DNA of 64,000 bases from Parasphingopyxis algicola. GTDB lineage: Bacteria > Pseudomonadota > Alphaproteobacteria > Sphingomonadales > Sphingomonadaceae. Shown piece by piece: positions 14,346-29,432 of the stretch. Every line of letters begins with the position of its first letter. Positions within the stretch are counted from its first letter, which is position 1. Under the pieces are notes generated by a model. The model did not search any database. It was not told the DNA's origin and worked only from the letters and a program-made list of their open reading frames with translations. The position numbers and the translations under genes were made by a program. The stretch lies in NCBI RefSeq assembly GCF_013378075.1, contig NZ_CP051131.1:1860001-1924000 (forward strand), in the 5' to 3' direction.

Positions 14346-16568
14346 ATGGCAACCGATGACTTGCCTTCGGATATCGATTCCATGCGCAAGGCGCTCGCGC
14401 TTGCCGAACGTCGATTGGCGCGCAGCGAGGCAGCGCGTATCGAGGCGGAGTCGATCCTGGACAGCAAGAGCCGGTCGCTCGTGGCGATGGGCGATCAACT
14501 GAAGCAGCAGGAAGCGGACCTGCTCAAACAGGTCGATCGGGACACGCAGATGCTGGTCAGTGCACAAAAACTGGCGCAGGTGGCGACCCTCCATGTGGAT
14601 GCAGATGGCCGTTTCGTCGGCTCCGAGAATCTCGCAGATATCGTCGGTTCGCGTATTCCAATCACCAATCTACAGCAGATGATTGCCATGATCCATCCGC
14701 TCGAGCCGGCGGAAACGATGGCCGTTCTGATGGACACCCTAAAGGGCGGGCTGATCGACAAGCCCAGCGAACGGGATGTGCGGTTTCTCGATCATTTCGG
14801 GGAATCGCGCTGGCTGCGCTGGTCGATTACGGAGCATGTCGAAGATTACGGGTTCGGCTATTCGGCGGTCGGATCTGTTCGCAATATCACGGCCGACCGA
14901 AAGGCGGAGCGGGAGCAGCGGACGTTGCGCGCCTTGGGCGAGCGGCGGCTCAAACAGCTTCGCAAGGCGTCTTTCGATCTGGAGGAAGCACGGAAAAAAG
15001 CGGTCGACGCAGATCGATCCAAATCGCGCTTCCTGGCGATGATGAGCCACGATATCCGTACGCCGATGAACGCGCTGCTCGCCACGCTCGAGTTGCTCAG
15101 CGTCTCCGAAGTCGATGCCGATCAGCGAGAGAAGCTGGAACTGGCGCTGGGTAGCGCCGATCAGCTTTTGCAGCTGTTGGCCGATATCATCGAACTGGCG
15201 CGGTCCGAAGGTTGGAAGATCATTCTGGACGAGAGCGATCTCGATCTTGAGGCATTCATGCGTTCGACCGTTCGCGCCTGGCAGCCTCTGGCACGCAAAA
15301 AGGGCCAAACGGTAACGCTCGCCATGGATCCGGATCTGCCCGAGGCGATTATCTCCGACAGGACGCGGCTAAGGCAGGTGCTCGACAATTTTATCAGCAA
15401 CGCGATCAAATATACCGGCGCCGGATGGATTACGGTCAGCGCCGAGCGCTTGGACGGCGAGCTGCAAATCTCGGTATCGGATACCGGCGAGGGCATTCCG
15501 GAAGCTGAGCATGAGCGCCTTTTCGAAGAACTGGAACGGCTTGATCTGCCAGAAGGGGAAAGGCCGCAGGGAACCGGGCTGGGCCTGTCAATTTGCCGCC
15601 GTATCGCGGACGCCATGGACGGAACGATCGGCGTTAACAGCAAACCGGGCGAGGGCAGTCAGTTCTGGATGCGCATTCCCCTGAAAACTGGATCGAAGGA
15701 TCGGGTGATCGTCCGCGAAGTCTTCGACGGAAAAGGCGATACAGCCACCATTGCCGGCCGGCCGCTCAACCTCCTGGTTGCGGAAGATGTCGAAGCCAAC
15801 CGGATCGTCATGGCGTCGATGCTCGACAAGTTAAATTGCACCTATGAAATGGCATCCAACGGCCTCGAAGTGCTGTCCTTGCTGCCGAAAGGCAATTTCG
15901 ATGCGATCTTAATGGATGTTTCCATGCCGCAGATGGACGGAATGGAGGCAACGCGACACATTCGGCGCAACGCCGGAGGCAAGCGGATTCTCATTTATGG
16001 CGTCACCGCCTTTGCCGCCCGGGATGAGCGGCTCGCCATTCTGGATTCCGGCATGGACGGCTTGTTGATCAAGCCGGTCAGCCTGGCGTCGCTTCACAAC
16101 CTGTTGCTCCAAATCGTACAGACCATCGAGCCGGCGACCGTGCATAAGCCGCCGCCAGAGAATATGGACAACGGCACCGATATCGGGACAGCCATTCGGT
16201 CGATCGACAGCGGCAAACTGGAGGAGCAGCTGTTGTCGGTTCCCGAGGAGCAAAGAGGCACGCTCGGCGATGCGATCCAACAAGACCTGACGAACTGGTA
16301 CGAGCGGTTCGGTGACGCATGGCGACAGGGCGATGACGGGGCCCTGTCTCGTGCGCATCATGCGTTGAAGGGCATCTGTCGCGGTTTCGGCGCTGAATTG
16401 CTGTTGGATACGCTCGACAGGGTGAAGGCTGGCGAGTCCGATACACTGGACGAGGCGAATGCTGTGCACGCGGACACGATTACCGCCATAGGCGCAATCG
16501 TGGATGGTCACCGGCAGAATGATGCGGCAAATTCAAAAGAGCAACAATCGGAGGCAAGTAGCGGATGA
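14346..16568 (+). CDS. Hybrid histidine kinase with receiver and Hpt domains (H-NOX partner)
   Basis: This 740-residue soluble protein contains: a coiled coil (about 10-70); a PAS-like region (about 75-185); HisKA (phosphoacceptor H235 in MMSHDIRTPMN); HATPase_c (N-box DNFISNAIKYT, G-boxes DTGEGIP and GTGLGLSICRR); a receiver (about 475-590, acidic pair E480-D481, D524 in ILMDVSMPQMDG, K in LIKPVS); and a C-terminal Hpt domain (H672 in HHALKGICRGFGAE). It has no membrane span. The next gene, overlapping by ATGA, encodes an H-NOX protein. In known systems H-NOX with bound NO inhibits such a kinase, so this is probably an NO-responsive phosphorelay. The output regulator is not adjacent. Confidence 0.93.
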   Translation: MATDDLPSDIDSMRKALALAERRLARSEAARIEAESILDSKSRSLVAMGDQLKQQEADLLKQVDRDTQMLVSAQKLAQVATLHVDADGRFVGSENLADIVGSRIPITNLQQMIAMIHPLEPAETMAVLMDTLKGGLIDKPSERDVRFLDHFGESRWLRWSITEHVEDYGFGYSAVGSVRNITADRKAEREQRTLRALGERRLKQLRKASFDLEEARKKAVDADRSKSRFLAMMSHDIRTPMNALLATLELLSVSEVDADQREKLELALGSADQLLQLLADIIELARSEGWKIILDESDLDLEAFMRSTVRAWQPLARKKGQTVTLAMDPDLPEAIISDRTRLRQVLDNFISNAIKYTGAGWITVSAERLDGELQISVSDTGEGIPEAEHERLFEELERLDLPEGERPQGTGLGLSICRRIADAMDGTIGVNSKPGEGSQFWMRIPLKTGSKDRVIVREVFDGKGDTATIAGRPLNLLVAEDVEANRIVMASMLDKLNCTYEMASNGLEVLSLLPKGNFDAILMDVSMPQMDGMEATRHIRRNAGGKRILIYGVTAFAARDERLAILDSGMDGLLIKPVSLASLHNLLLQIVQTIEPATVHKPPPENMDNGTDIGTAIRSIDSGKLEEQLLSVPEEQRGTLGDAIQQDLTNWYERFGDAWRQGDDGALSRAHHALKGICRGFGAELLLDTLDRVKAGESDTLDEANAVHADTITAIGAIVDGHRQNDAANSKEQQSEASSG

Positions 16569-17092
16569 AGGGCGTGATTTTTTCGGAGCTGATACGCTTC
16601 ATGGAGCAGGCGAAGTCGGCGGAGTTTGCCGACTCCGTGATTACGGGCGCGAATTTGCCGAATGACGGTGCCTATACCAGCGTCGGCAACTATCCTTCGG
16701 ATCAGGCCCTGACCCTGGTCGGCGAGGCATCGGCCCAGTCGGGCATCGAAGCTGCCGAATTGTGTCGTCTTTTCGGCCATTATCTCTATGGCCGCTTCAT
16801 GATCCTCTACCCGCACATCATGGAAAATTACCAGACGGCCGACGCGCTCTTGCTGCATGTGGGGAGTCATATCCATGCGGAAGTCTGCACGCTGTATCCC
16901 GATGCCCGCCCGCCGATTGTCGAAACATCGGTGAAAGACGATCGGGTGGTCATGCGATACCAGTCCCATCGTCCGATGGCGGCTATTGCCTTTGGGCTCG
17001 TTCAGGGGTGCATGGAAGAGTTCGGCGACAGGCGAACGCTGGAATGGGATATCGCGGACAACGGCAAATCGGCGACCTTTACTATACACTAG
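16565..17092 (+). CDS. H-NOX haem-binding NO/O2 sensor protein
   Basis: This 175-residue stand-alone H-NOX (haem NO-binding) protein begins MKGVIFSELIRFMEQ, typical of the family. The proximal haem ligand is probably H104 in SHIHAEVCTLYPDARPP, and the propionate-binding YxSxR motif is Y132-Q-S134-H-R136. Its ATG overlaps the stop of the hybrid kinase (ATGA), implying coupled translation. In facultative anaerobes and aerobes such proteins bind NO and signal to the partner kinase to alter biofilm or motility. The exopolysaccharide locus lies next to it on the opposite strand. Confidence 0.93.
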   Translation: MKGVIFSELIRFMEQAKSAEFADSVITGANLPNDGAYTSVGNYPSDQALTLVGEASAQSGIEAAELCRLFGHYLYGRFMILYPHIMENYQTADALLLHVGSHIHAEVCTLYPDARPPIVETSVKDDRVVMRYQSHRPMAAIAFGLVQGCMEEFGDRRTLEWDIADNGKSATFTIH

Positions 17093-17106
17093 CCGCCGAT
17101 TTGCCG
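17062..17106. terminator. Perfect 13-bp inverted repeat across the H-NOX stop codon
   Basis: CGGCAAATCGGCG at 17062-17074 pairs perfectly with 17094-17106 around a 19-nt loop that contains the TAG stop. It lies between convergent genes and may terminate transcription in both directions, though no T-run follows. Confidence 0.5.
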
Positions 17107-17128: not shown

Positions 17129-18571
17129 TCAATAGGCGCCCCGGCCGCTGACCACGGCGGGTATCGTTTTCGTGAGCAGCCAGATGTCGCGCAGAAGCGT
17201 GCGCGAGCTCAGATATTCAACGTCTAGCTCGACCTGCTTGTCGAATGGAATGTTCGCTCGACCCGAAACCTGCCAGGTGCAGGTGATGCCGGGCCGGCCC
17301 GACAGTCGTTTCCAGCTATCGTTCTTGTAAGACTGTACTTCGGCCGGCAGCGCTGGCCTCGGCCCGACGAGCGACATATCGCCGGCAACGACATTGTAGA
17401 TCTGCGGAAGCTCGTCGAGAGAAAATCGGCGTAGCCATTTTCCAACCCGCGTTATCCGGGGATCGTTGCGCATCTTGAAGCAAACGGAATCGCGCTCCGA
17501 TTGATCGAGAAGCGCGGCCCGGCGTGCCTCAGCGTCCACCGCCATAGAACGGAATTTGAGCATCTTGAACGGTTTCCCGTTTTTCCCGATCCGCGTTTGC
17601 GAGAAGAAAGCGGAGCCGCCATCCTCCGCCTTGATGAGCAAGGCGATGGCAGCCATGATCGGCGCAAGCATCGCCAGCGCGAGCGAGCCTATTGTCACGT
17701 CGATCGCCCGCTTTGCCCCATCGCCCGCCTGCGCGGCGATTCCGCGCCGAGCGATAGCGTGGCGAGCTGCGTGCCAGAGGAAGACCGGGTTGCCGGCGAG
17801 ATATCGGCCGGCCAGCCGCCGCGGTTCCCGAATGAAACGCCAGACCCATTCCATCCCACCGCGCCGCATAGCCTCGGGCGCGCGCGGAATGCGGCCCGAA
17901 TAATAGTCGAACAGACCGCCGACGCCGGACACAACCGGTGCGCTCAAAGCTTCGCGATACTGGGCGATCCATTTCTCTTGCCGTGGAACGCCGAGGCCGA
18001 CCAGCACTATGGCCGGCCGGGATCGATTGATCATGTCGATCACATCGGGCATCGCGCTTTCGTCATGATAGCCATGTTTGCATCCGGCGATGTGCAGCAT
18101 CGGATAGCGTTCGAGCATTTCTTCGGCGGCCGCCGCGGCGACGCCGGGCGCCCCACCCAACAGGAAGATCGGCAACCCGTGCTCTGCGGCGCTTTCGCAC
18201 AGTTCGGGGAAAACGTCGGTGCCGTTCAGATTGTCGCCCAGGCCGACGCCGGACCATTTTGCGGCGAGTGCCAGACCCGAACCGTCCGGCAAAATCAGAT
18301 CGCTGCGTTTCAAAATTCGCGCATAGTGGCTGTCCCTGTGCGCGACATTGATGCAGTGCGCATTGACGAAATTGACGGTCCGGCGCTGTCCGGAAGCAGC
18401 GGCCTCGATGATTGCGTCCACCGCCTCGGCCCGCGTCGCGTTCAGCAGCGGAAGTCCGAATAGCGTCGATGCGCCGCATTGCATCAGCGAAGCGTCCAGC
18501 TCGCTGCTGATCTTTGCCATGGCCTCGGTATCCAAGGGCTGGGCATTTCGAAAGTCGTTTGTCGTGAACAT
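17129..18571 (-). CDS. WecG/TagA-type glycosyltransferase fused to a polyprenyl-phosphate sugar-1-phosphate transferase
   Basis: From ATG 18571 (GGAG six bases upstream; a GTG at 18583 is less likely) the product has 480 residues. The first part (about 35-275) is a WecG/TagA/CpsF glycosyltransferase: VNFVNAHCINVAHRD, DLILPDGSGLA and VLVGLGVPRQEKWIA. The second part (about 285-480) is a bacterial sugar transferase of the PglC/WcaJ type: KRAIDVTIGSLALAML (membrane segment), FKMLKFRSM, LRRFSLDELPQIYNVV, GDMSLVGPRPALP. One polypeptide thus carries both the lipid-linked first step and the next glycosyl transfer of exopolysaccharide synthesis. A sigma-54 promoter lies 35 bp upstream. Confidence 0.93.
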   Translation of the reverse strand: MFTTNDFRNAQPLDTEAMAKISSELDASLMQCGASTLFGLPLLNATRAEAVDAIIEAAASGQRRTVNFVNAHCINVAHRDSHYARILKRSDLILPDGSGLALAAKWSGVGLGDNLNGTDVFPELCESAAEHGLPIFLLGGAPGVAAAAAEEMLERYPMLHIAGCKHGYHDESAMPDVIDMINRSRPAIVLVGLGVPRQEKWIAQYREALSAPVVSGVGGLFDYYSGRIPRAPEAMRRGGMEWVWRFIREPRRLAGRYLAGNPVFLWHAARHAIARRGIAAQAGDGAKRAIDVTIGSLALAMLAPIMAAIALLIKAEDGGSAFFSQTRIGKNGKPFKMLKFRSMAVDAEARRAALLDQSERDSVCFKMRNDPRITRVGKWLRRFSLDELPQIYNVVAGDMSLVGPRPALPAEVQSYKNDSWKRLSGRPGITCTWQVSGRANIPFDKQVELDVEYLSSRTLLRDIWLLTKTIPAVVSGRGAY

Positions 18572-18605
18572 GTATATCTCCACACTGATGTTGTGCGGAC
18601 CTTAA

Positions 18606-18621
18606 TGCAGGACCCGTGCCA
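18606..18621 (-). promoter_or_regulatory. Sigma-54 promoter of the WecG-sugar transferase fusion
   Basis: On the minus strand the sequence reads TGGCAC-GGGTC-CTGCA, matching the -24 box fully and the -12 box except for one base. A transcript would begin about 12 bp further on and run into the gene at 18571. Confidence 0.75.
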
Positions 18622-18727
18622 GAAGAGCGTGGCCTAGGATTTCTGCCGTATGAGGCAAGATTGTTGTGCTGCGATCGCATCGGCCGTGCGAGCAAAGCGC
18701 TAAGTGTCTCGCATATCGCGATGACGG

Positions 18728-18747
18728 CGTTTGCAATTTGCAAAACG
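18728..18747. promoter_or_regulatory. Candidate enhancer (activator-binding) site between two sigma-54 promoters
   Basis: The 15-bp dyad TTTGCAA-T-TTGCAAA (18730-18744) sits about 115 bp from the -24 box of the leftward promoter and about 72 bp from that of the rightward promoter. Related TTGCAAA sites occur upstream of the other two sigma-54 promoters of this locus. The binding protein is inferred to be the NtrC-type regulator at 27102. Confidence 0.5.
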
Positions 18748-18807
18748 GGTCTGATCGGTCGGCCAGACATTTCTCGTAATCCTTGGAAATCCGGGCTTTC
18801 CTAACTT

Positions 18808-18823
18808 TGGCACGGCGTTTGCT
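18808..18823 (+). promoter_or_regulatory. Sigma-54 promoter of the wzx operon
   Basis: TGGCAC-GGCGT-TTGCT matches the sigma-54 consensus at every conserved position. The predicted start of transcription is near 18833-18834, immediately before the ATG at 18835. Confidence 0.82.
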
Positions 18824-18834
18824 CAGATGGTGGC

Positions 18835-20145
18835 ATGTTTATTGGAACCATCATCGGGTTGGCGAGAAAGCGCTTGAACAGGATCGTACAAGGTGACGAT
18901 CGCCTGCTCCTCGGCGGCTTTACAGCCTATGTTTCGGCCGAGCTCATTGTTCGGATCGTGCGTGTCGCCGCCATTTTGGTGATCGCGCGGCAGGTCGACG
19001 CCCTGATTCTTGGCGTTGCGGCCCTGGCGCTGACGCTATTCGAACTCGTTCGCGTGCTGGCCAATGCCGGCATCGGCCAGAAGATCATCGCCGCACAAGA
19101 GGTCGACCTGCCAGCCATCTGCAATACGGCATACCGGCTGTTCTGGATCTGGTGCGGGATTGTCGCCCTCGTTCAAGCGGCAGTTGCTGCAATGATGGCA
19201 TTTATGTTCGGTCAATCGGCCGTCGCTGCAATGCTTGCGCTTTTGTGCGGCGTTTACGCCATCATGCCCTTCGGCCTCGTTCAGGTTTTCCTCCTGATGC
19301 GCGCGGGCAAGCTTCAAACGACGGCGCGTATCACGGCGAGCCAGACCATTGCCGATCATATTCTGACGGCGCTTCTCGTGCTGATCTGGCCGTCGGCCTG
19401 GGCAGTCGTCTTGCCGAAGCTGCTGACCGCGCCAGTCTGGCTGCTGATGGTGCGCCGCGCCTGCCATTGGCGGCGCGACAGCACCGCAGGACACGCGCCG
19501 GTCGCCTCGTTCGCAGCGTTCGGCACCGGTGTGCTGATCACCGAGATCGGCACCGCCGCGCGGATCCAGCTCGACAAGCTTATTATCGGCGCGCTGCTCG
19601 GCGTCGAAGCGCTTGGCCTCTACTATTTCGCGTTCAATGCCGGTCTCGGCATCACCGGCTCGCTGACCTCCGCCTATGGCACCGTACTCTACCCCTTCCT
19701 GTGCCGGGCAAAGGATCGGCTGGAAGGGGCCGCGCGCTATCGCCGGGGTATCATGTTCGGCGGAGCGATCCTTGTGCCGCTTATCCTGCTCCAGGTCGTG
19801 CTGGCGGATTTATACGTGCCGATCATATTCGGTGCTCACTGGTCATCTGCTGCTCCGCTGGTGTCGCTGCTCGGCCTTGCCGCGCTGGCGATGTTGGGGT
19901 CGACGCTGGCAACGACATGGCTGCGCGCCACCGGCCGGACCGGCCGCGACGCGGCCGCCAACTTCCTGGCCGGGACTTTCGCGCTGGGCGGACTCGCGCT
20001 GGGCGCCGGCCACGGCATCGACACTGCCGCGCTCGGCTATGTGGCCGGTCTCTCCATAATCCTGATTCCCTTCTTCGCCTGGATCGCTTTGCACGCGGCC
20101 AGGACTGTTTCCCTCCCCATATCGCCAAAGGAGTATTCCATATGA
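18835..20145 (+). CDS. Wzx-type polysaccharide flippase
   Basis: This 436-residue protein has about 12 hydrophobic helices and fits the MATE/oligosaccharide-flippase superfamily (Wzx/RfbX). Such proteins move undecaprenyl-linked repeat units across the inner membrane. ATG 18835 is the only in-frame ATG near the beginning; no Shine-Dalgarno is seen and the predicted sigma-54 start is one or two bases upstream, so the mRNA may be leaderless. The stop codon overlaps the start of the following glycosyltransferase (ATGA). Three transferases follow in the same direction. Confidence 0.87.
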   Translation: MFIGTIIGLARKRLNRIVQGDDRLLLGGFTAYVSAELIVRIVRVAAILVIARQVDALILGVAALALTLFELVRVLANAGIGQKIIAAQEVDLPAICNTAYRLFWIWCGIVALVQAAVAAMMAFMFGQSAVAAMLALLCGVYAIMPFGLVQVFLLMRAGKLQTTARITASQTIADHILTALLVLIWPSAWAVVLPKLLTAPVWLLMVRRACHWRRDSTAGHAPVASFAAFGTGVLITEIGTAARIQLDKLIIGALLGVEALGLYYFAFNAGLGITGSLTSAYGTVLYPFLCRAKDRLEGAARYRRGIMFGGAILVPLILLQVVLADLYVPIIFGAHWSSAAPLVSLLGLAALAMLGSTLATTWLRATGRTGRDAAANFLAGTFALGGLALGAGHGIDTAALGYVAGLSIILIPFFAWIALHAARTVSLPISPKEYSI

Positions 20146-21071
20146 GCGAGCCACTTTTCTCGGTCATCATCCCTGTCTTCAATGCCGAAGAGACTCTCGA
20201 TCGGACGGTCCGGAGCGTGCTCGACCAGACGATCGGCGATTTCGAGCTCCTGCTGATCGACGACGGTTCGACCGACGCCAGCATCAAAAAGATGCTGAGA
20301 TTTGCATCCGAGGATCAACGGATCCGCGTCGTCTCTCAAGAAAATCGTGGCGCGGCAGCCGCGCGAAACCTGGGCATCGAAATGGCCAGGGGTGCTTTGA
20401 TCGCTTTTCTCGATGCCGACGACATCTGGGCCTCGACCAAATTGGAGTGTCACGCCACTGTGCATCACCGGGACATGATGGTGGCCGTCAGCTGCGCAAA
20501 GGTCGCCTTTATCGGGCCCGAGACCAGAAATCTGGACGATGCCGATGCGGTGTCGGGCATAGCGTTCGGATCGCTGAAGCTTCCCGATCTGGTCGCGGAA
20601 AATCCGACATGCACGACTTCTAACCTCGTCGTCAGCCGCGAATGTTTCGACACGGTAGGCGGGTTCAAGGAGGACCTGCACCATGCCGAGGATCAGGAAT
20701 GGCTGATGCGTGCCGCCGTCGCGGGCTATCTGATCAGGAGCATCGATGATCTTCTTGTCGGATATCGCGCTAGCGCCGGCGGTCTTTCAGCGGATCTCGA
20801 CAGCATGCACAGGGGCTGGCGCAGCGTCGTCGACGGATATCGCCGTTCGGTCGACGTCAACGCGGCCGAGGCCGTCTATTGCCGGTATCTGGCCCGGCGC
20901 GCGCTTCGCATGGGGGCCGGAGCAAAATCCACCTGGCGCTATGTCGGTATCGCGTTCCGCCGCGATGTGTCCGCCTTTTTTGGCGACCGGAGGCGTGGCG
21001 CGCTCATCTTGCTGGGCGCACTCGCCAGCCTGTTTCTACCCCGCACGTTCCAAAGAAAATTGTTTTCCTGA
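20142..21071 (+). CDS. Glycosyltransferase family 2
   Basis: This 309-residue protein starts at ATG 20142 with AAAGGAG upstream. It has the GT-A fold blocks FSVIIPVFNAEETLDRTVRS, LLLIDDGSTDAS, NRGAAAARNLGIEMA and the metal-binding FLDADDIW (DxD). HHAEDQEWLMRAA carries the acidic ED motif of the acceptor site. It adds one sugar of the exopolysaccharide repeat unit. It resembles the next gene, suggesting an old duplication. Confidence 0.92.
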   Translation: MSEPLFSVIIPVFNAEETLDRTVRSVLDQTIGDFELLLIDDGSTDASIKKMLRFASEDQRIRVVSQENRGAAAARNLGIEMARGALIAFLDADDIWASTKLECHATVHHRDMMVAVSCAKVAFIGPETRNLDDADAVSGIAFGSLKLPDLVAENPTCTTSNLVVSRECFDTVGGFKEDLHHAEDQEWLMRAAVAGYLIRSIDDLLVGYRASAGGLSADLDSMHRGWRSVVDGYRRSVDVNAAEAVYCRYLARRALRMGAGAKSTWRYVGIAFRRDVSAFFGDRRRGALILLGALASLFLPRTFQRKLFS

Positions 21072-21082
21072 AGGAGGATAAG

Positions 21083-22078
21083 ATGACACAGCGTCCAGCA
21101 ATGTCGGTCGTGATGCCGATGTACAATGTCGAACGCTATATCGGCGAGGCGATCCAGTCGGTTCTCGATCAGGATTTCGAAGATTTCGAGTTGATCATCG
21201 TCGATGACGCCAGTCTCGATGGCAGCAACGGGATCTGCCACAGCTTCAAGGATCCGCGCATCAGGGTGATTGCCCAGCGCAATCGCGGCCTTGCCGGCGC
21301 GCGCAACACAGGAGTCGCCGCTGCGAGAGGGCGCTTTATCGCCTTGCTCGATTCCGACGATCGCTGGGTTCCTTCGAAGCTGGGCCTGCATTTCATCCAT
21401 TTGACGGCAAATCCCGATGTGGATGTCAGCTATTCGGGGTCGCGCTTCATCAATGAAGCAGGCCTCCCCCTAGCGTTGGCAATGCGGCCGAAACTCGAAG
21501 ACGTGACCGCGAAGGATATCGTGACACGCAATCCCGTCGGCAACGGATCCGCGCCGGTTATCAGAAAGTCCGCGCTCGACAGGGTCGCGTTCCGGCATCC
21601 CGCGGAGCCGGAGCGCACCTGCTGGTTCGACGAGAGTTTTCGGCAGTCCGAAGATATCGAAATGTGGCTCCGCATGGCGGTCGGTGCCGGATGCCGGTTC
21701 GAGGGTATATCCGGTCTGCTGACCGAATATCGCGTTGCGAGCGGCGGTCTTTCGGCCAATATCGCGCGGCAATATGAAAGCTGGTGCCGCATGATCGACA
21801 AGACGGCCGGATATGCTCCCGGTTTCATCCGGAAACACCGGGCCGCCGCAGAAGCCTATCAGCTCCGGTATCTCGCTCGTCGCTCGGTGCAGCTCGGCGA
21901 CGGCGCGTTTGCACTGGCCCTCGTGCGTCAATCCCTGGCAAGAAACGCCCGGATTCTGTTTCAGGAACCGGGCAAGACGCTGTCGACCGCCTTGGCGGCG
22001 GCCGCAGCGCGTTGGCTCCCCTCGCGCGCCTTCGATGCCGTAGCGCAATGGCGGCTGGGCGCCGGGCTCAAGACATGA
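21083..22078 (+). CDS. Glycosyltransferase family 2
   Basis: This 331-residue protein starts at ATG 21083 with a strong AAGGAGG site. Motifs: MSVVMPMYNVERYIGEAIQS, LIIVDDASLDGS, NRGLAGARNTGVAAARG, LLDSDDRW and QSEDIEMWLRMA. It is the second of two related GT2 enzymes in the operon. Its stop codon overlaps the start of the GT4 gene (ATGA). Confidence 0.92.
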   Translation: MTQRPAMSVVMPMYNVERYIGEAIQSVLDQDFEDFELIIVDDASLDGSNGICHSFKDPRIRVIAQRNRGLAGARNTGVAAARGRFIALLDSDDRWVPSKLGLHFIHLTANPDVDVSYSGSRFINEAGLPLALAMRPKLEDVTAKDIVTRNPVGNGSAPVIRKSALDRVAFRHPAEPERTCWFDESFRQSEDIEMWLRMAVGAGCRFEGISGLLTEYRVASGGLSANIARQYESWCRMIDKTAGYAPGFIRKHRAAAEAYQLRYLARRSVQLGDGAFALALVRQSLARNARILFQEPGKTLSTALAAAAARWLPSRAFDAVAQWRLGAGLKT

Positions 22079-23142
22079 GGCAGCTTGCGGCGGCGCATCT
22101 GCTTGAGGACGTTTCGTTCGGCGGCGTGGTGAAGTCACTCAGCATCTTCGACCGACCCGAACTTGCCACGCGCATTCGCAACGAGATGATCGAAGTCAAT
22201 CCAGCCGGGGTGCGCGCACCGCGGCTGGATGCGGATATTATCATCACCCATTTCACGCCGCGCTGGCGGACGCTTCCGTTTCTCCACGCTCTGCGATTGC
22301 GCAATCGCAAGGCCTTTCTCGTGCATGTCGAGCATAGCTACACACGCGCGTTCGAGGAGCTGCACGTCGACAGCGTCAGGCGCTTTCGTGCAATGCTGCG
22401 CGGATCCTATGCCGCATTCGACGAGGTCGTGGCCGTTTCGCATGGCCAAGCCGACTGGCTTCGCGTGGCACGACTTGTTCCCCATGAAAAGCTGCTCGTG
22501 ATTCCGCCCTGGAGCGATCACGGCGATCTGCGCGCCATGCCGTTGGCATGCCATTCCGGCAATCGTCCGATCGTGATCGGGGCGTATGGCCGGTTCGACG
22601 CGATCAAGGGCTTCGATGTGTTGATCGATGCCGTGAGACGGCTCGACCCGACCAGATTTTCCTTGCTGCTTGGTGGCTTCGGCCCGGAAGAGGATGAGTT
22701 GAAGCACCGGGCGAGCCTCATGCCGAACATGGAATTTGCCGGCAAGGTAACCAATCATCGGGATTTCCTGGGCCGATGTGACATCGTGGCGATACCCTCA
22801 CGACGCGAAGCCTTTGGCCAGGTGGCCATGGAAGCGAAACTTGCTGGTCGCCCGATCATCGCAGCGCAGGTCGATGGTTTGCCGGAGCAAGTTGGGAAGG
22901 CCGGAATAACCGTCGATTGCAGCTCGGCGGAGACGCTGGCGGCAGCGCTTGCTCAGCTACCCAAGCTGCCGCTGGATAAGATGGCTGAAGCCGCGAGGGC
23001 GAGCGTAGCTGACGCGGAAATCACGCGCCTATTGGCCTGGCAGCGCCTTTTTGGCCGGGCGGCGCGCTATTGCCGCGCTTCGCAATCTGTCGAAGCGCGT
23101 GCCGCGGCGCCGATCAGAACGAGCGCCGGCCAGATCAGATAG
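22075..23142 (+). CDS. Glycosyltransferase family 4
   Basis: This 355-residue protein starts at ATG 22075, overlapping the stop of the previous gene. It is a GT-B enzyme: an N-terminal acceptor domain, and a C-terminal donor-nucleotide domain with GAYGRFDAIKGFDVLIDAV, FAGKVTNHRDFLGRCDIVAIPSRREAFGQV and the nucleotide-sugar-binding Glu region. It is the last gene of the rightward operon. Its 3' 76 bp overlap the 3' end of the polymerase gene on the other strand. Confidence 0.92.
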   Translation: MRQLAAAHLLEDVSFGGVVKSLSIFDRPELATRIRNEMIEVNPAGVRAPRLDADIIITHFTPRWRTLPFLHALRLRNRKAFLVHVEHSYTRAFEELHVDSVRRFRAMLRGSYAAFDEVVAVSHGQADWLRVARLVPHEKLLVIPPWSDHGDLRAMPLACHSGNRPIVIGAYGRFDAIKGFDVLIDAVRRLDPTRFSLLLGGFGPEEDELKHRASLMPNMEFAGKVTNHRDFLGRCDIVAIPSRREAFGQVAMEAKLAGRPIIAAQVDGLPEQVGKAGITVDCSSAETLAAALAQLPKLPLDKMAEAARASVADAEITRLLAWQRLFGRAARYCRASQSVEARAAAPIRTSAGQIR

Positions 23143-24347
23143 CTCATAATTTCCAGATTCTCCCCGAAGCTGTAGAGGAACAGCAGCAGGATCATCGACA
23201 GGCCGACGCGGCCGGTCGCATGATGCCAGGCGGCGTGCAGCAACACGACAAAGCTGAACAGCATCGGTATCGCGAGAGCCGCAAAACCGAGCGCGCCTTT
23301 GACGAACAACAGCCCGTACCAGCTGTGATGGCTGCCGATCGGCATATATTCCACGAGATGCGGTCCGTTCTCGACGATCCCGTGCCCGAACCAGGGCGCT
23401 TCATTCTGCCATCGTTCGACGGCAATCCGGCCGAGGATTTCGCGGACGCGCGTCGATCCGGCCCGAGCGCGATCGAAGCTGTCGATCAGCTCCGTCAGAT
23501 GGTCGATGATCGCTGGGGCCATGAGCCCGGCGAAGACCGCTGCGGGCGCTGACAGAAACCAGATTGCGGGTCTGTTCATCCGCGCCAGCAGATGGGCGGC
23601 CGGCCACAACATCAGTAAGGCAATTAGGGCGACCCGAGATTGGGACAGCACGGCCACGGCAAGCCCGGCGGCCAAGCCTATGTAGCGCCATCTCCGATGC
23701 TTCTCTTCGAGCGCGCACAGGACGTAGATCACCCCGACCATGCCCGCCGCCGGCGACCAGGGGGCGAAAAATTGCCATCGCGGCAGACCCGAGCCGGGTT
23801 CGAACGTGTATAGCGTGACGGAGAAGAACTCGGGGCCCGATCCGCCGAGAATTCTGAGCGGCGAGACATAGAGTTCGCCCGGCAATCCGACATAGGGCGC
23901 CGCCAGAAAAATGGGGAGGATGAGGAGTGTTTGCAGGCCAAGTCGGCACACGGCGCGATAGATCGTTTCGGGCCGGATCTTCAGGACGGCGCCGGCCAGC
24001 GGGAACAGCGCCAGCAATGCCCAGCCCTTGGCCCAGCCGATCGACGATTTTATCGTTTGGACGGTGCCGAGATCGTTCAGCGCGTGTCCGATCAGCAAGA
24101 TGGCGAGCATCGCCGCCATCGAAGCGAGCCAAACGACAACCAAAGACGGGACGGGATCCGGCCGCATGCGCATCGGCAATGCCGGTGCAAAATAGAGATT
24201 GCGGACGGCCAGCGCGGCCAGGCACCAGCCAAGCGCTGGGCCGACGAGGTACAGCGCCCCGGCGATCCAGAACAGCCAAGTGCTCTGGATTGTGATCGAG
24301 ATCAGCCGCTCGGCAGGATTTTCCGGATGACCTGCTGACGCGACCAT
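23067..24347 (-). CDS. Wzy-like polysaccharide polymerase / O-antigen ligase family
   Basis: This 426-residue protein has about 11 hydrophobic segments. A long periplasmic loop (about residues 265-340) holds ARAGSTRVREILGR and WFGHGIVENGP, then SHHSWYGLLFVKGALG, resembling the O-antigen ligase/Wzy superfamily. It would polymerise the lipid-linked repeats outside the inner membrane. Its start overlaps the end of the Wzz-like gene by 46 bp on the same strand, and no ribosome-binding site is evident, so it depends on coupling. Family assignment is by topology, so ligase versus polymerase is not separable. Confidence 0.8.
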   Translation of the reverse strand: MVASAGHPENPAERLISITIQSTWLFWIAGALYLVGPALGWCLAALAVRNLYFAPALPMRMRPDPVPSLVVVWLASMAAMLAILLIGHALNDLGTVQTIKSSIGWAKGWALLALFPLAGAVLKIRPETIYRAVCRLGLQTLLILPIFLAAPYVGLPGELYVSPLRILGGSGPEFFSVTLYTFEPGSGLPRWQFFAPWSPAAGMVGVIYVLCALEEKHRRWRYIGLAAGLAVAVLSQSRVALIALLMLWPAAHLLARMNRPAIWFLSAPAAVFAGLMAPAIIDHLTELIDSFDRARAGSTRVREILGRIAVERWQNEAPWFGHGIVENGPHLVEYMPIGSHHSWYGLLFVKGALGFAALAIPMLFSFVVLLHAAWHHATGRVGLSMILLLFLYSFGENLEIMSYLIWPALVLIGAAARASTDCEARQ

Positions 24348-25723
24348 AACAGTATGAACCCGATGAGAGTGAGAAATGTCGCCAGCAGACCGCCGCCCAG
24401 CACGAAGAGAAGTTTGGGGGAGCTCGGCCGGCTCGGCAGGGACGGCTCTTCTAGCGTCTGGACCAGCGGATAGGAAGCAAAGGGGTCGGATTGATTTGTA
24501 TCCAGCTGAGCGAGCGCGGAGGAGAAGACCGCTTCGGCAACCCGCAGATCGCGCGTTAGATCCGCCAGCTCGGACGCCTTTTCGACCAGCTGCGCCGACG
24601 TCGCCGATTGTTCTTGCAGCTGCGCGCGGATCTCCGCCAACGCCGCCGACTCCCCGGCGGCCTCGCTGTCGGCGAGCAGCGTCGATTGCATGAGACCGGC
24701 GCGAACATCGGACACCGCGAGATCGGCAAACCGCATGATCTGGGTTCCGCTCAAGCCGGTCAGGGCCCGTCCGCGCTGACTCAGCGATTCGCGCAGGGAA
24801 TCGGTCTCGGCGGTAAGCTCCTCAATCGTGGAGTGTCGGGAGCCTAGGGTTCCCGACGCTTCGGCACGCTGGGCCGTCAGGTTCGCATAACGATCCAGCA
24901 GCGTCTGAAATTCGGGATCGGCGCCCAGGAGCATCGCGCGCCTCGCATCGCCGCGCGATATCTGCAGCGACGATGCCAGCCGGCTCGTGGCGGCCTGTGT
25001 CCGTCGTGTGGCCGTGCGTGCATCGCGTTCCCGATCGCGCAGCGCATCGAAGGCGGCAACCCTACCGTTGAACTGATCCATGGAAACAAGCCCGGTCTCT
25101 CCCTGGAACTGCAGGAGAGCTCGCTGGGCCTCGCGGACCTTGGCTTCCAGCCCGTCGAGGCGAGACCGGTCGGCCTCTTCCCGCCGCTCCGCCTCGTCTG
25201 CACGAAGACGCGCCAATTCGACCAGAAAGGCTTCCCGAAGCGCGGTCGCGCGGCGTCGAGCATGTTCGCGGGTGTCGCCCGCGACGTTGACCCCGATCAG
25301 GTTCGTCTGGTCGACCAACCGTATGGTCGGCCTCGGAAAATCGCCTTCGTCCTCGTCGGCGATATCCGCCGCTCTGTCCAATACCACATCGGACATCAGC
25401 AAGCGCTTGTAGTTCTCAGTCGGGCTCAGCGAAGAGCTGGAAAATGCTGAGGACGAAGCCGTCGACGCCTGACCGATCGTTTCCAGGTTGATCGACGATC
25501 CAACGCCGGATCCCGGCAGGATGAGTGTCGTTCGGCTCGAATAGCTGGTCGGCGCCACAATCAGATAGAGTATGACCAGCAGCCAGATGACACCGATCGA
25601 GGGCAGCGCGGTCTTCAGGTAGCGTTGGGTCCGCCCGGGAAAAGGCAGCCCGTTCTGGGCGACCCACAGGATCCGATTGAAAAGCCCCTGTTCCGGGTTC
25701 GCTCTGACATGTTCCATTCTCAT
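24302..25723 (-). CDS. Wzz-like chain-length / polysaccharide co-polymerase protein
   Basis: From ATG 25723 the product has 473 residues. The architecture is of a polysaccharide co-polymerase: an N-terminal membrane span (PSIGVIWLLVILYLIV), a large coiled-coil periplasmic domain (about 130-420, rich in Arg, Glu and Ala) and a C-terminal span (LLFVLGGGLLATFLTLIGFILLW) preceded by a Pro-rich segment (PSLPSRPSSPK). There is no Walker-type tyrosine kinase domain, unlike Wzc. The start codon shares a base with the Wza stop (TGATG), so it is translationally coupled. Confidence 0.87.
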   Translation of the reverse strand: MRMEHVRANPEQGLFNRILWVAQNGLPFPGRTQRYLKTALPSIGVIWLLVILYLIVAPTSYSSRTTLILPGSGVGSSINLETIGQASTASSSAFSSSSLSPTENYKRLLMSDVVLDRAADIADEDEGDFPRPTIRLVDQTNLIGVNVAGDTREHARRRATALREAFLVELARLRADEAERREEADRSRLDGLEAKVREAQRALLQFQGETGLVSMDQFNGRVAAFDALRDRERDARTATRRTQAATSRLASSLQISRGDARRAMLLGADPEFQTLLDRYANLTAQRAEASGTLGSRHSTIEELTAETDSLRESLSQRGRALTGLSGTQIMRFADLAVSDVRAGLMQSTLLADSEAAGESAALAEIRAQLQEQSATSAQLVEKASELADLTRDLRVAEAVFSSALAQLDTNQSDPFASYPLVQTLEEPSLPSRPSSPKLLFVLGGGLLATFLTLIGFILLWSRQQVIRKILPSG

Positions 25724-26919
25724 CAGTCGATCGCCCCGCTCAAGATCGCGGCCGGCGTGACGGCGTTGACCGCGCCGGTTACGAGCGAGATCGCATCGGC
25801 GAAGTTCATCATCCGGCTGTCGTAGCAAGCCAGCGCATCGCCGGGCATCAGATAGGGATCGACGGAATCGCGATCTGCTCCGCGGACCAGCTCCTCGACT
25901 TCACGCTCGATGACGACGCTCCGGCCGTTCATCGGATTGCGCGAAATCAGCACCGCTCGCCGACGGGCGTTCATCGCCGAACCGCCGATGCAGTTCATCG
26001 CGACCAGGCCCTGAAGCATGCGCGTGCCATAAGGGAGGTTCAGCGTTTCGGTGCCGATACCGGCCCCCGCATTGTTGTTGGCCGGCCGTGAGAGGTTCGA
26101 CATGTGCACCCGGATACCCGGCGCGGTGAGCGGCGAGGGGCGCACGATATCGGCGCGGAAACAGCCCGTGCTGGGAACGATGATCCGGTCACCGGCCGTC
26201 ACGCCGAGATCGAGCCGCTGCGTCCCGTCGATCATGCCGCTCATATCGAGGATGGTCTGGCGATCGTCGCGGATAACGATGATCCGCGAGATGTCGGCAT
26301 CGGGGCGGACACCGCCAGCGGCGCGCAAGGCGGTCGATACGGTGCGCCCGCTATTGGCGTCGCCGGACACTTCGCCCTCGCGCTGACCGACGCGATCTTC
26401 CGCCCGGCGCTCGCCGACGCGAACGGAGCCGGAAAGAAACACGGCACCGGTCACCGAAATCGGAACCCCACCGCTCTCGATCAGCCGCAGATCGACAGCC
26501 CTTGAAAGCGGCCGGACCAGACTGGCCGCGATCAAGGACTGCCTGAGTGCGCCGGCAACAACCCTTTCGGTCTTGCCGGCGGCGGGAACACTTGGAACGC
26601 CCGGGAGATTGATGTTGCCGTTTGAATCGACGACATAGATGCCGCTGAGCGTGTCTTCGTCACCCAGAACGGCCACGCGGACCCGATCTCCGGGAGCAAA
26701 CCGGAGCGCCCCGTCCACCATATCGGCAGGAGATACGGTAGCGCGGCCAGTCGGGAGGGCGTGGTCACGTGCTTCGCAGGCTGCGGCGCCATATTCGCTA
26801 TGTTGCGGCATCCAGGCGCTGCCGGACAGGTTTTCCGGTGCAGGGCCCACGGCGCAACCGGTGGCAAGCAGCCCCAAAAGACAGGTGGTCGTTCGCCAAG
26901 CAAACACTGATTGAAGCAT
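25723..26919 (-). CDS. Wza-like outer-membrane polysaccharide export lipoprotein
   Basis: From ATG 26919 (AAGGA upstream) the product has 398 residues. It begins with a lipoprotein signal ending LLGLLATGC (Cys21). A Poly_export domain follows (about 75-165: RFAPGDRVRVAVLGDEDTLSGIYVVDSNGNINLPGVPSV), then SLBB-like parts, including VSTALRAAGGVRPDADISRIIVIRD and LDLGVTAGDRIIVPS. It would form the outer-membrane export channel. It heads the leftward wza-wzz-wzy operon and has a sigma-54 promoter about 26 bp from the predicted start of transcription to the ATG. Confidence 0.92.
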   Translation of the reverse strand: MLQSVFAWRTTTCLLGLLATGCAVGPAPENLSGSAWMPQHSEYGAAACEARDHALPTGRATVSPADMVDGALRFAPGDRVRVAVLGDEDTLSGIYVVDSNGNINLPGVPSVPAAGKTERVVAGALRQSLIAASLVRPLSRAVDLRLIESGGVPISVTGAVFLSGSVRVGERRAEDRVGQREGEVSGDANSGRTVSTALRAAGGVRPDADISRIIVIRDDRQTILDMSGMIDGTQRLDLGVTAGDRIIVPSTGCFRADIVRPSPLTAPGIRVHMSNLSRPANNNAGAGIGTETLNLPYGTRMLQGLVAMNCIGGSAMNARRRAVLISRNPMNGRSVVIEREVEELVRGADRDSVDPYLMPGDALACYDSRMMNFADAISLVTGAVNAVTPAAILSGAID

Positions 26920-26954
26920 ATCTGGTCCTTCGTCATCTGTTCGGACCAAGACGT

Positions 26955-26970
26955 TTCAAGAACCGTGCCA
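26955..26970 (-). promoter_or_regulatory. Sigma-54 promoter of the wza-wzz-wzy operon
   Basis: The minus strand reads TGGCAC-GGTTC-TTGAA: a perfect -24 box and a -12 box with one mismatch. It is divergent from the NtrC-type regulator gene. Confidence 0.75.
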
Positions 26971-26987
26971 AAAACTAATACTTTGTA

Positions 26988-27062
26988 TTTCAACGATTTA
27001 AAAAATATAACCATGCGAAATCTTAGCATTATGCAAAGACAGCTGTGCGATATTGCAAATCG
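26988..27062. promoter_or_regulatory. IHF-like site and candidate enhancer upstream of wza
   Basis: Bases 26988-27000 match the IHF consensus WATCAANNNNTTR at all but one position. About 50 bp further upstream lies CGATATTGCAAATCG (27048-27062), an imperfect dyad with the TTGCAAA core shared with the other sigma-54 promoters. The order promoter, IHF site, enhancer is the classical arrangement. The enhancer is only about 85 bp from the -24 box. Confidence 0.45.
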
Positions 27063-27101
27063 GGAAGGCTGGATGCGGGCGCAAGTCGTAGAGGAAATCA
27101 C

Positions 27102-28523
27102 GTGACCGAACAGACGATGCGCATATTGATCGTCGAAGATACGCAGTCGCTGGCGCTATCCTATGCAGGCACGCTGGAAAAGTCGGGTTATGTCGCCGAG
27201 ATCGCGGACTCGATTGCCGACGCATCCGAGAAACTTGCTGCCGGAGAGCATTTTCCCGTCCTGTTGCTAGATCTGCAGCTGCCCGATGGTGACGGTCTAG
27301 ATCTCCTTAGGGCTTTTCCGAAGCTTGCCGAGGAAGCCAGCATCATCGTTGTAACAGCCGACGGATCCATCAACCGGGCGGTCGAGGCCATGCAACGCGG
27401 CGCCTATGATTTCATCGTCAAGCCACTGGCGCCTGAAAGACTGCTGACCTCCATTCGCAACGCCCTCGAACGCACGGAGCTGAAGACGGAGATCAAGACC
27501 GTCAAGCGCCGTGGGGACCGGAGAAGTTTTCACGGATTCATCGGTAAATCGCCGGCGATGCAGGCGGTGTACCGGGCGATCGAGAATGTCGCCAATTCGA
27601 ACGCCACGGTCTTCATCACCGGCGAAAGCGGCACCGGCAAGGAAGTCGCGGCGGAAGCCATTCATGCGGAAAGCCAGCGCCGCCGCGGCGCCTTCGTCGC
27701 GATCAACTGCGGCGCGATACCCGAAAACCTGCTCGAATCGGAACTGTTCGGCCATGTGAAAGGCGCCTTTACCGGCGCCGTCGAGAATCGCGTTGGCGCC
27801 GCCAGGGAAGCCGATGGTGGAACGCTGTTTCTCGACGAGATCGGGGAGATGGACCTCAAGCTTCAGGTGAAGCTGTTGCGGTTTCTGCAGACCAGTCTGA
27901 TCCAGCGCGTCGGCACCAGCCGGACCGAAGCCGTCGATGTCCGCGTTATCTGCGCGACAAACCGGGATCCGGTCGCCGAAGTCGCAGCCGGCCGATTCCG
28001 GGAGGATCTCTTTTATCGCCTCGCCGTCATTCCGCTCGAACTGCCAGCGCTGCGCGACCGCGGAGAAGATATCGGATTGCTCGCGCAGTCCTTTCTGGCG
28101 CAAATGGCGGAGGAAGAGGGGAAATCGTTCGATCCGCTGGCGCCGGATGCGTTGCAGCTCCTCCAGTCGTCGGCCTTCCCCGGCAATGTGCGCGAACTGC
28201 AGAATGTTATCCGCCGGGCGGTGATCATGAACCCCGGCCCGACAGTTGCGGCACGCGAGATCGCCTCTCATCTGGAACAGGGACAGGCCGTGACGACCGG
28301 CGTACAGTCGCGAACCCAAGTGGCATCCGACACAGGCGCCGATGTGACCGACGATCTCACGCTCTCCCTGGAGGGCATGACCTTGGACGAGGTCAATCGG
28401 CTGGCAATCGAATCCGCCATACAGCGGGCCGGCGGAAGCTTGCCGGCGGCGGCCAAGGCGCTCGGCGTCAGCCCCTCCACGCTCTACCGCAAAAGAGAAA
28501 AGTGGCTTTCAAAAACCGGTTAG
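27102..28523 (+). CDS. NtrC-family sigma-54-dependent response regulator
   Basis: From GTG 27102 (GAGG upstream; ATG 27117 is possible) the product has 473 residues. A receiver domain (about 6-120, D57 in [12 protein letters not shown]) is followed by an AAA+ sigma-54 activation domain (about 145-385): Walker A GESGTGKE, the sigma-54-contacting GAFTGA loop in [14 protein letters not shown], Walker [14 protein letters not shown] and [11 protein letters not shown] Fis-type helix-turn-helix ends the protein ([19 protein letters not shown]). It resembles the response regulators that control exopolysaccharide loci (PrsR-like). No partner histidine kinase is adjacent. It probably activates the four sigma-54 promoters described here. 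Confidence 0.94.
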
Positions 28524-28560
28524 CCGCCGTGCAATTGTCCGGCACGCATGCCGCGAATGG

Positions 28561-29307
28561 CTAGGCGGTCCTCAGCAGGTGCAGAAATGCGCGCACGTCC
28601 TCGAGCATCGTCGCCACCTGGAACATGAAGAGGAAGAACGCCGGGTAGAACAGCGGAACCGCCGTGAACGACCAGCCAATGGGGATCCGGACGAGCGCCG
28701 TCCTGCCGAGCAGCCAGGTGCCAACCAGCGTGAAGCCGACGCCGATCGCAGCGCCCACGGCAAGATCGCTCAGATAATGCAGCCCGAGATAGAGCCGCGG
28801 AAACATGATGAAGACGAGCGTGTAGAGCAACGCGACGGCGCCGATGCGCCAGGAAATCAGCCACAGCCCGGCTACCAGCGCGAAAAACAGGACCGCATGG
28901 TCGCTGGGGAACGAGCTTTCGGCCAGCATTTCGGGTGCCAGAACCATGAGGCTCTCCGGAGCCTGAAAAGCGAGATCCGGATTGAGAAATGGCCGCAAGC
29001 GAAACGGGAGACTGTTGGAGAGCAACCGCGCAAAGACCTCGCCGATGGCCGCCGAAAGCAGACTGCACAGTATGATCGCGCGGTTTCGCCGCTGCTGCCC
29101 GTCATCGCCGCGGCCGGCGGCGCTCGGCTGCCACAACCATGTGAAGCACAAGAGAGCCGCCAAAACTCCGCCCTTGGCGAGGTGGCTGGAGGAAAGCGTG
29201 AGAATAAGCGCGTCAAAGAAAGGCCAGGCGCCCATCATCTGGCCCAGATACTCGGTCAGCGTGCGATCGATATAAGCGGCCGCGTCCATAATGATCGGGA
29301 AAGGCAT
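28561..29307 (-). CDS. PAP2-superfamily membrane phosphatase
   Basis: From ATG 29307 (GGAG eight bases upstream; ATG 29331 would be nearly leaderless) the product has 248 residues with about six membrane spans. The three phosphatase signatures are visible: PFRLRP, SFPSDHAV and PRLYLGLHYLSD, containing the catalytic His pair. Enzymes of this type dephosphorylate undecaprenyl pyrophosphate or phosphatidic acid, and here it may recycle the polyprenyl carrier of exopolysaccharide synthesis. A sigma-54 promoter lies upstream and ties it to the same regulon. Confidence 0.88.
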   Translation of the reverse strand: MPFPIIMDAAAYIDRTLTEYLGQMMGAWPFFDALILTLSSSHLAKGGVLAALLCFTWLWQPSAAGRGDDGQQRRNRAIILCSLLSAAIGEVFARLLSNSLPFRLRPFLNPDLAFQAPESLMVLAPEMLAESSFPSDHAVLFFALVAGLWLISWRIGAVALLYTLVFIMFPRLYLGLHYLSDLAVGAAIGVGFTLVGTWLLGRTALVRIPIGWSFTAVPLFYPAFFLFMFQVATMLEDVRAFLHLLRTA

Positions 29308-29343
29308 CGTGTCAGCTCCGTTGGTTGTCATGCAGACAGGACA

Positions 29344-29359
29344 ACCAAGAAGCGTGCCA
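29344..29359 (-). promoter_or_regulatory. Sigma-54 promoter of the PAP2 gene
   Basis: The minus strand reads TGGCAC-GCTTC-TTGGT, a perfect -24 box with a partly matching -12 box. Predicted transcription start is about 25 bp before ATG 29307. Confidence 0.68.
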
Positions 29360-29377: not shown

Positions 29378-29432
29378 ATTCAACGACTTAGTTCGAGTGA
29401 ACGGCATTATCTTCGCGATTTGCAAAAAATCG
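29378..29432. promoter_or_regulatory. IHF-like site and candidate enhancer upstream of the PAP2 gene
   Basis: Bases 29378-29390 match the IHF consensus at all but one position and lie at almost the same distance from the -24 box as in the wza promoter. CGATTTGCAAAAAATCG at 29416-29432 contains the shared TTGCAAA core within a dyad. A GCATTAT heptamer precedes the enhancer in both promoters (29404-29410 and 27026-27032). Confidence 0.45.

Follow-up and report, generated by a model that had tools for sequence, protein, structure and literature searches.

A 64,000-nt stretch of the Parasphingopyxis algicola genome (contig NZ_CP051131.1, positions 1,860,001 to 1,924,000; here called the window, in whose own numbering features are given) carries four predicted sigma-54 promoters before exopolysaccharide genes, together with the gene for a predicted LuxO/SypG-type sigma-54 activator. 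That these genes form a sigma-54 regulon is strongly supported by site-box pairs (a promoter with an activator box upstream of it) and by their conservation in relatives. From gene content and linkage we think it likely that an H-NOX (haem nitric oxide binding) protein, a hybrid histidine kinase, the LuxO/SypG-type activator, and the sigma-54 exopolysaccharide operons are one nitric oxide (NO)–responsive cassette, similar in its working to the syp system of Vibrio fischeri, and we infer that the regulon is under NO control. An earlier reading of the same DNA, made from its letters alone (the sequence-only reading), had proposed a sigma-54 exopolysaccharide regulon around an orphan, PrsR-type NtrC-family regulator; the regulon stands, and the descriptions "orphan" and "PrsR-type" do not.

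Predicted promoters and activator boxes

The four promoters and the boxes that accompany them are as follows.

18606-18622, minus strand: sigma-54 promoter of the WecG fusion gene, CTGGCACGGGTCCTGCA
18807-18823, plus strand: sigma-54 promoter of the wzx operon, TTGGCACGGCGTTTGCT
26955-26971, minus strand: sigma-54 promoter of wza-wzz-wzy, TTGGCACGGTTCTTGAA
29344-29360, minus strand: sigma-54 promoter of the PAP2 gene, CTGGCACGCTTCTTGGT
18730-18744: activator box, TTTGCAATTTGCAAA, within which lies an exact LuxO box, TTGCAATTTGCAA (at 18731)
18708-18722: second activator box, weak at 12.5 bits and under the 14-bit threshold, 22 bp from the box at 18730
27023-27037: activator box, TTAGCATTATGCAAA, its center 59 bp upstream of the wza promoter
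29412-29426: activator box, TTCGCGATTTGCAAA, its center 59 bp upstream of the PAP2 promoter

When every position on both strands of the 64 kb was scored with a sigma-54 matrix (consensus YTGGCACGN4TTGCW), the four promoters, at the places where the sequence-only reading had put them, took ranks 1 to 4 with 20.7, 16.6, 16.6, and 15.3 bits; the match ranked fifth, at 14.5 bits, is within the PAP2 gene. The wzx promoter, TTGGCACGGCGTTTGCT, which had been called perfect, is indeed the sole exact TGGCAC-N5-TTGC in the window. By itself the count of this raw pattern is weak support for promoters: with at most one mismatch there are 8 matches in 64 kb against 4.13 expected, and 4 of 100 shuffles reach 8. 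A scan of the 3.67-Mb genome, which the same reading had suggested, found the stricter pattern YTGGCACGN4YTG 15 times, with 4 of the 15 being the claimed promoters, within 10.75 kb. The remaining 11 predict about 0.03 occurrences in 10.75 kb (Poisson P about 5e-8, for a region and a pattern picked post hoc). None of those 11 is a clear positive control, and nine of them overlap an open reading frame (ORF) of at least 130 codons on either strand. RpoN is encoded by a single copy in the genome, at 2.015 Mb, and sigma-54 activators are represented by five strong and three weak matches, of which the window holds one. As judged from these sequence comparisons, the four predicted promoters are real.

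With the usual spacing from a sigma-54 site to the transcription start, transcription from the wzx promoter would begin at the first wzx ATG (both within 18807-18837), giving either a leaderless message or a downstream start codon. When the best sites of relatives and window are taken together, 13 of 24 at wza and 15 of 22 at wzx have TTGAA in place of TTGCA at the end of the -12 element, as do none at the WecG fusion (0/22) or H-NOX (0/28); this deviation is consistent at wza and wzx and may set promoter strength.

Sigma-54 promoters require an upstream activator site. A box matrix was made from 74 boxes of 16 relatives, the window excluded, starting from the palindromic seed TTYGCAWWWTGCRAA. 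Its top three matches in the 64 kb, at 29412, 27023, and 18730 (24.9, 22.4, and 21.8 bits), fall one in each promoter-bearing intergenic region (three regions, four promoters), and the fourth, at 18708, scores 12.5 bits. The box at 18730-18744 is common to the divergent WecG fusion and wzx promoters, at distances of 115 and 70 bp, respectively, and is the only exact match to TTYGCAWWWTGCRAA in the genome. With at most one mismatch the seed occurs at four places in the whole genome, three of them the window boxes, and with at most two mismatches at 42; the fourth place, 1520535, is within long ORFs and has no strict sigma-54 match nearby. The window holds four site-box pairs; in 200 dinucleotide shuffles the mean was 0.005, and no shuffle had more than one. 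Two of the 200 reached a 21-bit box. The place and strength of the boxes carry more weight than their number. The window boxes match the LuxO box TTGCAWWWTGCAA, with which the SypG motif overlaps according to PMC10162802, and they are present at all four promoters, where the regulator is predicted to bind.

Promoters were then compared with those of relatives, denoted below by genome (G) or locus (L) number, using a sigma-54 site of at least 13.5 bits from -160 to +30 of the inferred start, with starts extrapolated from tblastn. Absence of the sites from relatives with the same genes had been named as what would overturn the regulon, and they are present in nearly all: with the window excluded, sites precede wza in 12 of 12, the WecG fusion in 9 of 11, wzx in 8 of 11, and H-NOX in 14 of 16. 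The corresponding counts for controls were 1 of 16 for the regulator, 0 of 13 for the kinase, and 1 of 56 for internal genes (three glycosyltransferases, wzy, and wzz); among 6800 random stretches taken from all 17 sequences, 1.3% had a site. The 16 relatives used for training amount to 592 kb with 92 boxes at the 14-bit level, 81 of which have a sigma-54 site 20-300 bp downstream. The relatives' boxes form arrays, often about 21-22 bp apart, and their distances from the promoters show helical phasing (at 11 bp, R is 0.55 over all 134 distances; R is 0.66 when the nearest box at each of 48 sites is taken), these distances being nonindependent where divergent promoters share boxes.

A test set was provided by 11 cassettes found later via the wzy gene and absent from matrix training. 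A site of at least 12 bits together with a box was found before wza in 11 of 11, wzx in 9 of 10, the WecG fusion in 9 of 10, and H-NOX in 9 of 11, and before none of 52 internal genes; sites alone at 13.5 bits gave 10 of 11, 8 of 10, 9 of 10, and 9 of 11, respectively. Over the 220 kb of these cassettes, 41 of 48 boxes are upstream of wza, wzx, WecG, or H-NOX promoters, again with phasing (R 0.43 at 10.75 bp; 77 distances). One of the 11, which belongs to another family (G169, L260), matches at regulator, H-NOX, and kinase, with wza alone passing for site and box; a locus from a Rhizobiales-labelled metagenome-assembled genome (L017) has regulator, wza, and WecG-fusion matches and no boxes. 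A contrast set of 79 other loci gave 3 site-box pairs altogether.

Regulator, H-NOX, and hybrid kinase

The signaling genes of the proposed cassette are the following.

14346-16568, plus strand: hybrid histidine kinase; Pfam HisKA, HATPase_c, and Response_reg over cut-off
16565-17092, plus strand: H-NOX; PF07700, 94 bits
27102-28523, plus strand: LuxO/SypG-type response regulator and sigma-54 activator, with receiver (REC) Asp, GAFTGA, and Fis-type helix-turn-helix

The regulator is the only sigma-54 activator in the window and has an intact GAFTGA, both as the sequence-only reading had it. It matches PF00072 (81 bits), PF00158 (237 bits), and PF02954 (40 bits); the phosphoacceptor segment LLDLQLPD is present in 13 of 13 aligned regulators, and GAFTGA is replaced by GSFTGA in 2 of the 13. 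Among NCBIfam models, LuxO ranks first (519 bits; cut-off 800) and the PrsR model TIGR02915 (PEP_resp_reg) second (405 bits; cut-off 502.6), and two relatives' regulators rank the two models likewise. Since the score is under the cut-off of the LuxO (Vibrio) equivalog, the protein is LuxO-type and not Vibrio LuxO itself. The best solved chain is 5ep0, named LuxO, at 380 bits, and the next is at 317. A separate true PrsR (675 bits) is encoded at 2.64 Mb (G000:C1:2641392), 750 kb away. No exosortase was found in the window, as had been stated, and the one match in the genome is at 603 kb (G000:C1:603498), the window covering 1.86-1.92 Mb. By these comparisons the window regulator is of LuxO/SypG type and not PrsR. 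In the alignment, the C-terminal helix-turn-helix of one relative's regulator (L137, from G128) looks frame-shifted.

The kinase gene runs 4 bp into the H-NOX gene, and the two adjoin the WecG fusion gene. In the window kinase the His in MSHDIRTP, the ATP boxes, and the REC Asp are intact. Its C terminus is HPt-like, with AHHALKG aligning with relatives that match Hpt and the window protein itself having no Hpt match; its N terminus has no Pfam match, and PAS is found in several relatives. The haem-ligating His and the YxSxR motif (YQSHR) of H-NOX were aligned with the solved H-NOX chain 6ocv and are kept in 11 of 11 sequences (the window and 10 relatives). The nearest relatives of the window H-NOX are the proteins of G023 and G068 (71% and 69%), which also have the nearest kinases (39% and 47%), and the regulator is closest to those of G097 and G003; the H-NOX and kinase may thus share a history apart from the regulator. 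An inverted repeat spotted by eye across the end of the H-NOX gene (17059-17105) is probably a terminator. A LytTR-type two-component pair lies at 9351-11251, about 3 kb upstream of the kinase gene.

Regulator orthologs of at least 468 bits are present in 16 of 149 genomes of the family, its own included, and the next match is at 329 bits. H-NOX (PF07700) is encoded in 22 of the 149, including all 16 with the regulator, and in 13 of these 16 it is directly 5′ of the regulator gene on the same strand. With kinase and H-NOX beside the cluster in the window as well, the regulator cannot be called an orphan: on this genetic linkage it is tied to H-NOX and the hybrid kinase, neither of which was part of the sequence-only reading. 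The genomes G003 and G146 have kinase genes, H-NOX, and regulator as one string on one strand; G014 has H-NOX, hybrid kinase, a stand-alone HPt, and regulator on one strand; the contig of G097 ends before where a kinase could be seen; and G020 shares with the window an H-NOX placed with the kinase. Three near-perfect sigma-54 sites lie in G146 at relative positions 35795, 37047, and 38364 (contig offset 210000), about 10-12 kb past the regulator, and have no LuxO-type boxes.

Ten of the 15 other regulator genomes have the same polysaccharide genes in the same order. In G082, wza and wzz are on a 5.6-kb contig and wzy is on another; in G003, G097, G014, and G146 there is no polysaccharide cassette in the fetched stretch and no wzy in the genome. 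Aurantiacibacter marinus (L016) also carries the cassette. Strong wzy matches were detected in 12 of the 149 family genomes, with two more at 19-20 bits. All 12 strong genomes have the regulator, so that no family genome was available as a control with the cassette and without it. The gene is found in 19 of 296 genomes of the order (own included), 18 of them in the family and one in another family, and in none of 384 genomes of the class outside its own genome.

A proposed NO-responsive circuit and its alternatives

In the proposed circuit, H-NOX would bind NO and gate the hybrid kinase, which would supply phosphate to the regulator via its own His-Asp-His relay; the phosphorylated regulator would bind the palindromic boxes TTYGCAWWWTGCRAA, which are in helical register with the promoters, and open RpoN-polymerase at four promoters: those of the WecG fusion, the wzx-glycosyltransferase operon, wza-wzz-wzy, and PAP2. 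We infer each of these links, namely binding of the boxes by the regulator, its phosphorylation by the kinase, and control of the kinase by H-NOX. In the most likely order of events, NO acting on H-NOX would turn the kinase off, leaving the regulator unphosphorylated and the polysaccharide operons off. That NO stops the kinase and turns synthesis off is put forward because of the analogy with Vibrio HnoX-HahK and H-NOX-HqsK, and for the sign itself the chances are about even.

According to excerpts of the V. fischeri papers, the syp locus is divided into four operons that all have SypG sites and a sigma-54 promoter (PMC10804989), and an NO-sensing HnoX inhibits HahK, which acts via SypF and LuxU to promote SypG-dependent syp biofilm (PMC12369376). 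The window matches this plan: four polysaccharide operons, each having a sigma-54 site and activator sites; a SypG-type activator, the SypG sites of V. fischeri overlapping LuxO boxes; and a predicted NO sensor with a kinase that would feed the activator. It differs in having sensor, HPt-like kinase, regulator, and polysaccharide genes in one alphaproteobacterial cassette, whereas V. fischeri has hnoX-hahK in an operon by itself, divergent from VF_A0070, and HahK acts through SypF and LuxU. In these papers NO control of a sigma-54 polysaccharide locus is described for V. fischeri, with sensor and target genes apart. Unlike in V. fischeri, the H-NOX–regulator operon of most of the window's relatives has its own sigma-54 promoter. 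The syp locus has 18 genes, including SypA (STAS) and SypE, whereas no STAS domain of SypA type was found among the 20 window ORFs scanned; the two systems are likened by their working only, and gene order is not the basis.

The H-NOX, hybrid kinase, His-Asp-His relay, LuxO-type activator, and LuxO box are likewise those of the H-NOX-HqsK-LuxU-LuxO pathway of V. harveyi and V. parahaemolyticus (PMC6759604; PMC3759921); in V. parahaemolyticus, NO–H-NOX inhibits HqsK, whose phosphate passes to LuxU and then LuxO (PMC6759604). In that pathway LuxO drives the qrr small RNAs, whereas the window boxes precede polysaccharide operons, and no quorum-regulatory (qrr) RNA was found in the window at the Rfam gathering threshold, which a tRNA alone passed. 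Among open-licence papers, where absence counts for little, we found none on H-NOX in Erythrobacter or sphingomonads.

The most basic challenge to this circuit is that the promoters are a chance or compositional product of GC-rich sequence. The low excess of the raw pattern fits such a view, which the matrix ranks, box pairing, shuffles, conservation, and recovery in untrained cassettes contradict, and we give it almost no credence. PrsR/PrsK systems with an exosortase (PEP-CTERM) have an NtrC-type activator that controls exopolysaccharide through sigma-54, and the window offers an NtrC-type activator adjoining polysaccharide genes, with PEP_resp_reg as its second-best family. It is nevertheless very improbable that an orphan PrsR-type regulator controls exopolysaccharide here as in those systems: the regulator is under the PrsR cut-off and 114 bits below LuxO, the genome's true PrsR and its exosortase locus are elsewhere, and the boxes are LuxO-type; PrsR identity was rejected on these grounds. 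A regulon that is real, with H-NOX and kinase as mere neighbors serving another output such as cyclic di-GMP, would suit the 10 kb between H-NOX and regulator in the window and the genomes that have H-NOX and no regulator. We consider it unlikely, given that H-NOX is usually immediately 5′ of the regulator, that its promoter region mostly bears the same site-box pairs, that G003, G146, and G014 keep the signaling genes as one string on one strand with no polysaccharide genes, and that the 20 ORFs scanned yielded neither a GGDEF nor an EAL domain.

An appreciable minority possibility is that the circuit is right and the sign or ligand is not, with H-NOX activating polysaccharide on NO or sensing redox or oxygen. 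The sign cannot be read from sequence, and in excerpts of PMC6759604 every H-NOX form tested in V. parahaemolyticus inhibited the kinase, the NO-bound form most. On the other side, the excerpts on the H-NOX/hybrid-kinase pairs of V. fischeri, V. harveyi, and V. parahaemolyticus agree that the kinase is inhibited by H-NOX with NO.

Several observations weigh against the single NO-responsive cassette or the evidence for it. The weights of the sigma-54 matrix are round numbers and not fitted, and the seed TTYGCAWWWTGCRAA was chosen after inspecting boxes of the window and relatives. Three boxes of at least 14 bits arise in 12 of 200 shuffles, so the box count alone says little, and the LuxO box at up to two mismatches is not enriched in the window (16 against 19.6 expected). 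The relatives share ancestry, which makes the counts nonindependent, and for several of the 11 test cassettes the genus was also in the training set. At 13.5 bits, sites were missed for the WecG fusion in G051 and G032 (12.7 bits); for wzx in G051 (12.2 bits), G023, and G128, the last of which has a 16.6-bit site close to the wzx start, beyond the tested range; and for H-NOX in G054 and G037 (12.8 bits). The PAP2 gene is tied to the system in the window only. Unlike in most relatives, the window H-NOX is not 5′ of the regulator, and neither gene has a sigma-54 promoter before it, one being present for H-NOX in 14 of 16 relatives; in the window the two have therefore probably lost the usual positive feedback. 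H-NOX is found without the regulator in 6 of 149 genomes (G036, G050, G119, G125, G130, and G137), at loci that have no site-box pair in five of the six. The sixth, G130 (L211, 9179-12576), has partial H-NOX, regulator, wza, and kinase matches and no wzx, wzy, wzz, or glycosyltransferase match, retains one sigma-54 site with three boxes, and looks like a decayed cassette.

Finally, among 14 aligned kinases, the window's included, nine have ATPase motifs that are degenerate or deleted, with the DHp His, REC Asp, and HPt His kept, so the hybrid kinase is not always the phosphate source. The nine are L181, L185, L187, and L192, of about 690 aa, and L196, L190, L183, L126, and L135, of 550-590 aa. 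Six kinases next to ATPase-defective proteins were scanned, five being HAMP-PAS-HisKA-HATPase and one PAS-HisKA-HATPase-REC-Hpt (L192 was aligned and was not among the scanned sequences). A DHp-REC-HPt hub with its catalytic domain degenerate or deleted would be fed by a separate kinase next door, and H-NOX would switch a phosphorelay node instead of an ATP-using enzyme. We suggest tentatively, with the balance leaning somewhat against it, that the sphingomonad NO-to-polysaccharide cassette is compact and exchangeable, arose independently of Vibrio syp or was exchanged with it, and in many cases has H-NOX gating such an ATPase-less relay hub.

If the single NO-responsive cassette is correct, an alphaproteobacterial sensor, phosphorelay, sigma-54 activator, DNA boxes, and polysaccharide genes would sit together in one small segment, conserved enough for its regulatory code to be read directly. 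It would make H-NOX control of exopolysaccharide testable in a small environmental bacterium and would offer a natural gradation between intact kinases and ATPase-less relays, with a LuxO-type box shared across classes.

Polysaccharide genes

The predicted targets are the following.

17129-18583, minus strand: WecG/TagA/CpsF glycosyltransferase fused to a bacterial sugar transferase (initiating enzyme); PF03808, 203 bits, and PF02397, 211 bits
18835-20145, plus strand: Wzx-type flippase; PF13440, 111 bits
20142-21071, plus strand: family 2 glycosyltransferase; PF00535, 112 bits on the enclosing ORF
21032-22078, plus strand: family 2 glycosyltransferase, start approximate; PF00535, 109 bits
22075-23142, plus strand: GT4-type glycosyltransferase, start approximate; PF13692 and PF00534
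23067-24347, minus strand: Wzy-like polymerase candidate, by position; no Pfam or NCBIfam match
24302-25828, minus strand: Wzz/EpsF-like chain-length protein; TIGR03017, 39 bits, a weak match below cut-off
25723-26919, minus strand: Wza-type outer-membrane export protein; PF02563, 43.5 bits, start read by eye
28561-29331, minus strand: PAP2 phosphatase; PF01569, 49 bits, start possibly ATG 29307

Of a Wzx/Wzy-type system, Wzx, Wza, and the initiating transferase are matched, Wzz is weak, and Wzy has no family match. No PAP2 homolog was found in the relatives' stretches. With a promoter of its own and the top-scoring box, the window's PAP2 gene is probably part of the regulon in this genome. 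Undecaprenyl-diphosphatase models match the PAP2 protein far below cut-off only, and it plausibly recycles the undecaprenyl carrier. The WecG fusion gene likely starts at an ATG near 18571, and its two domains are in one protein that relatives match over most of its length.

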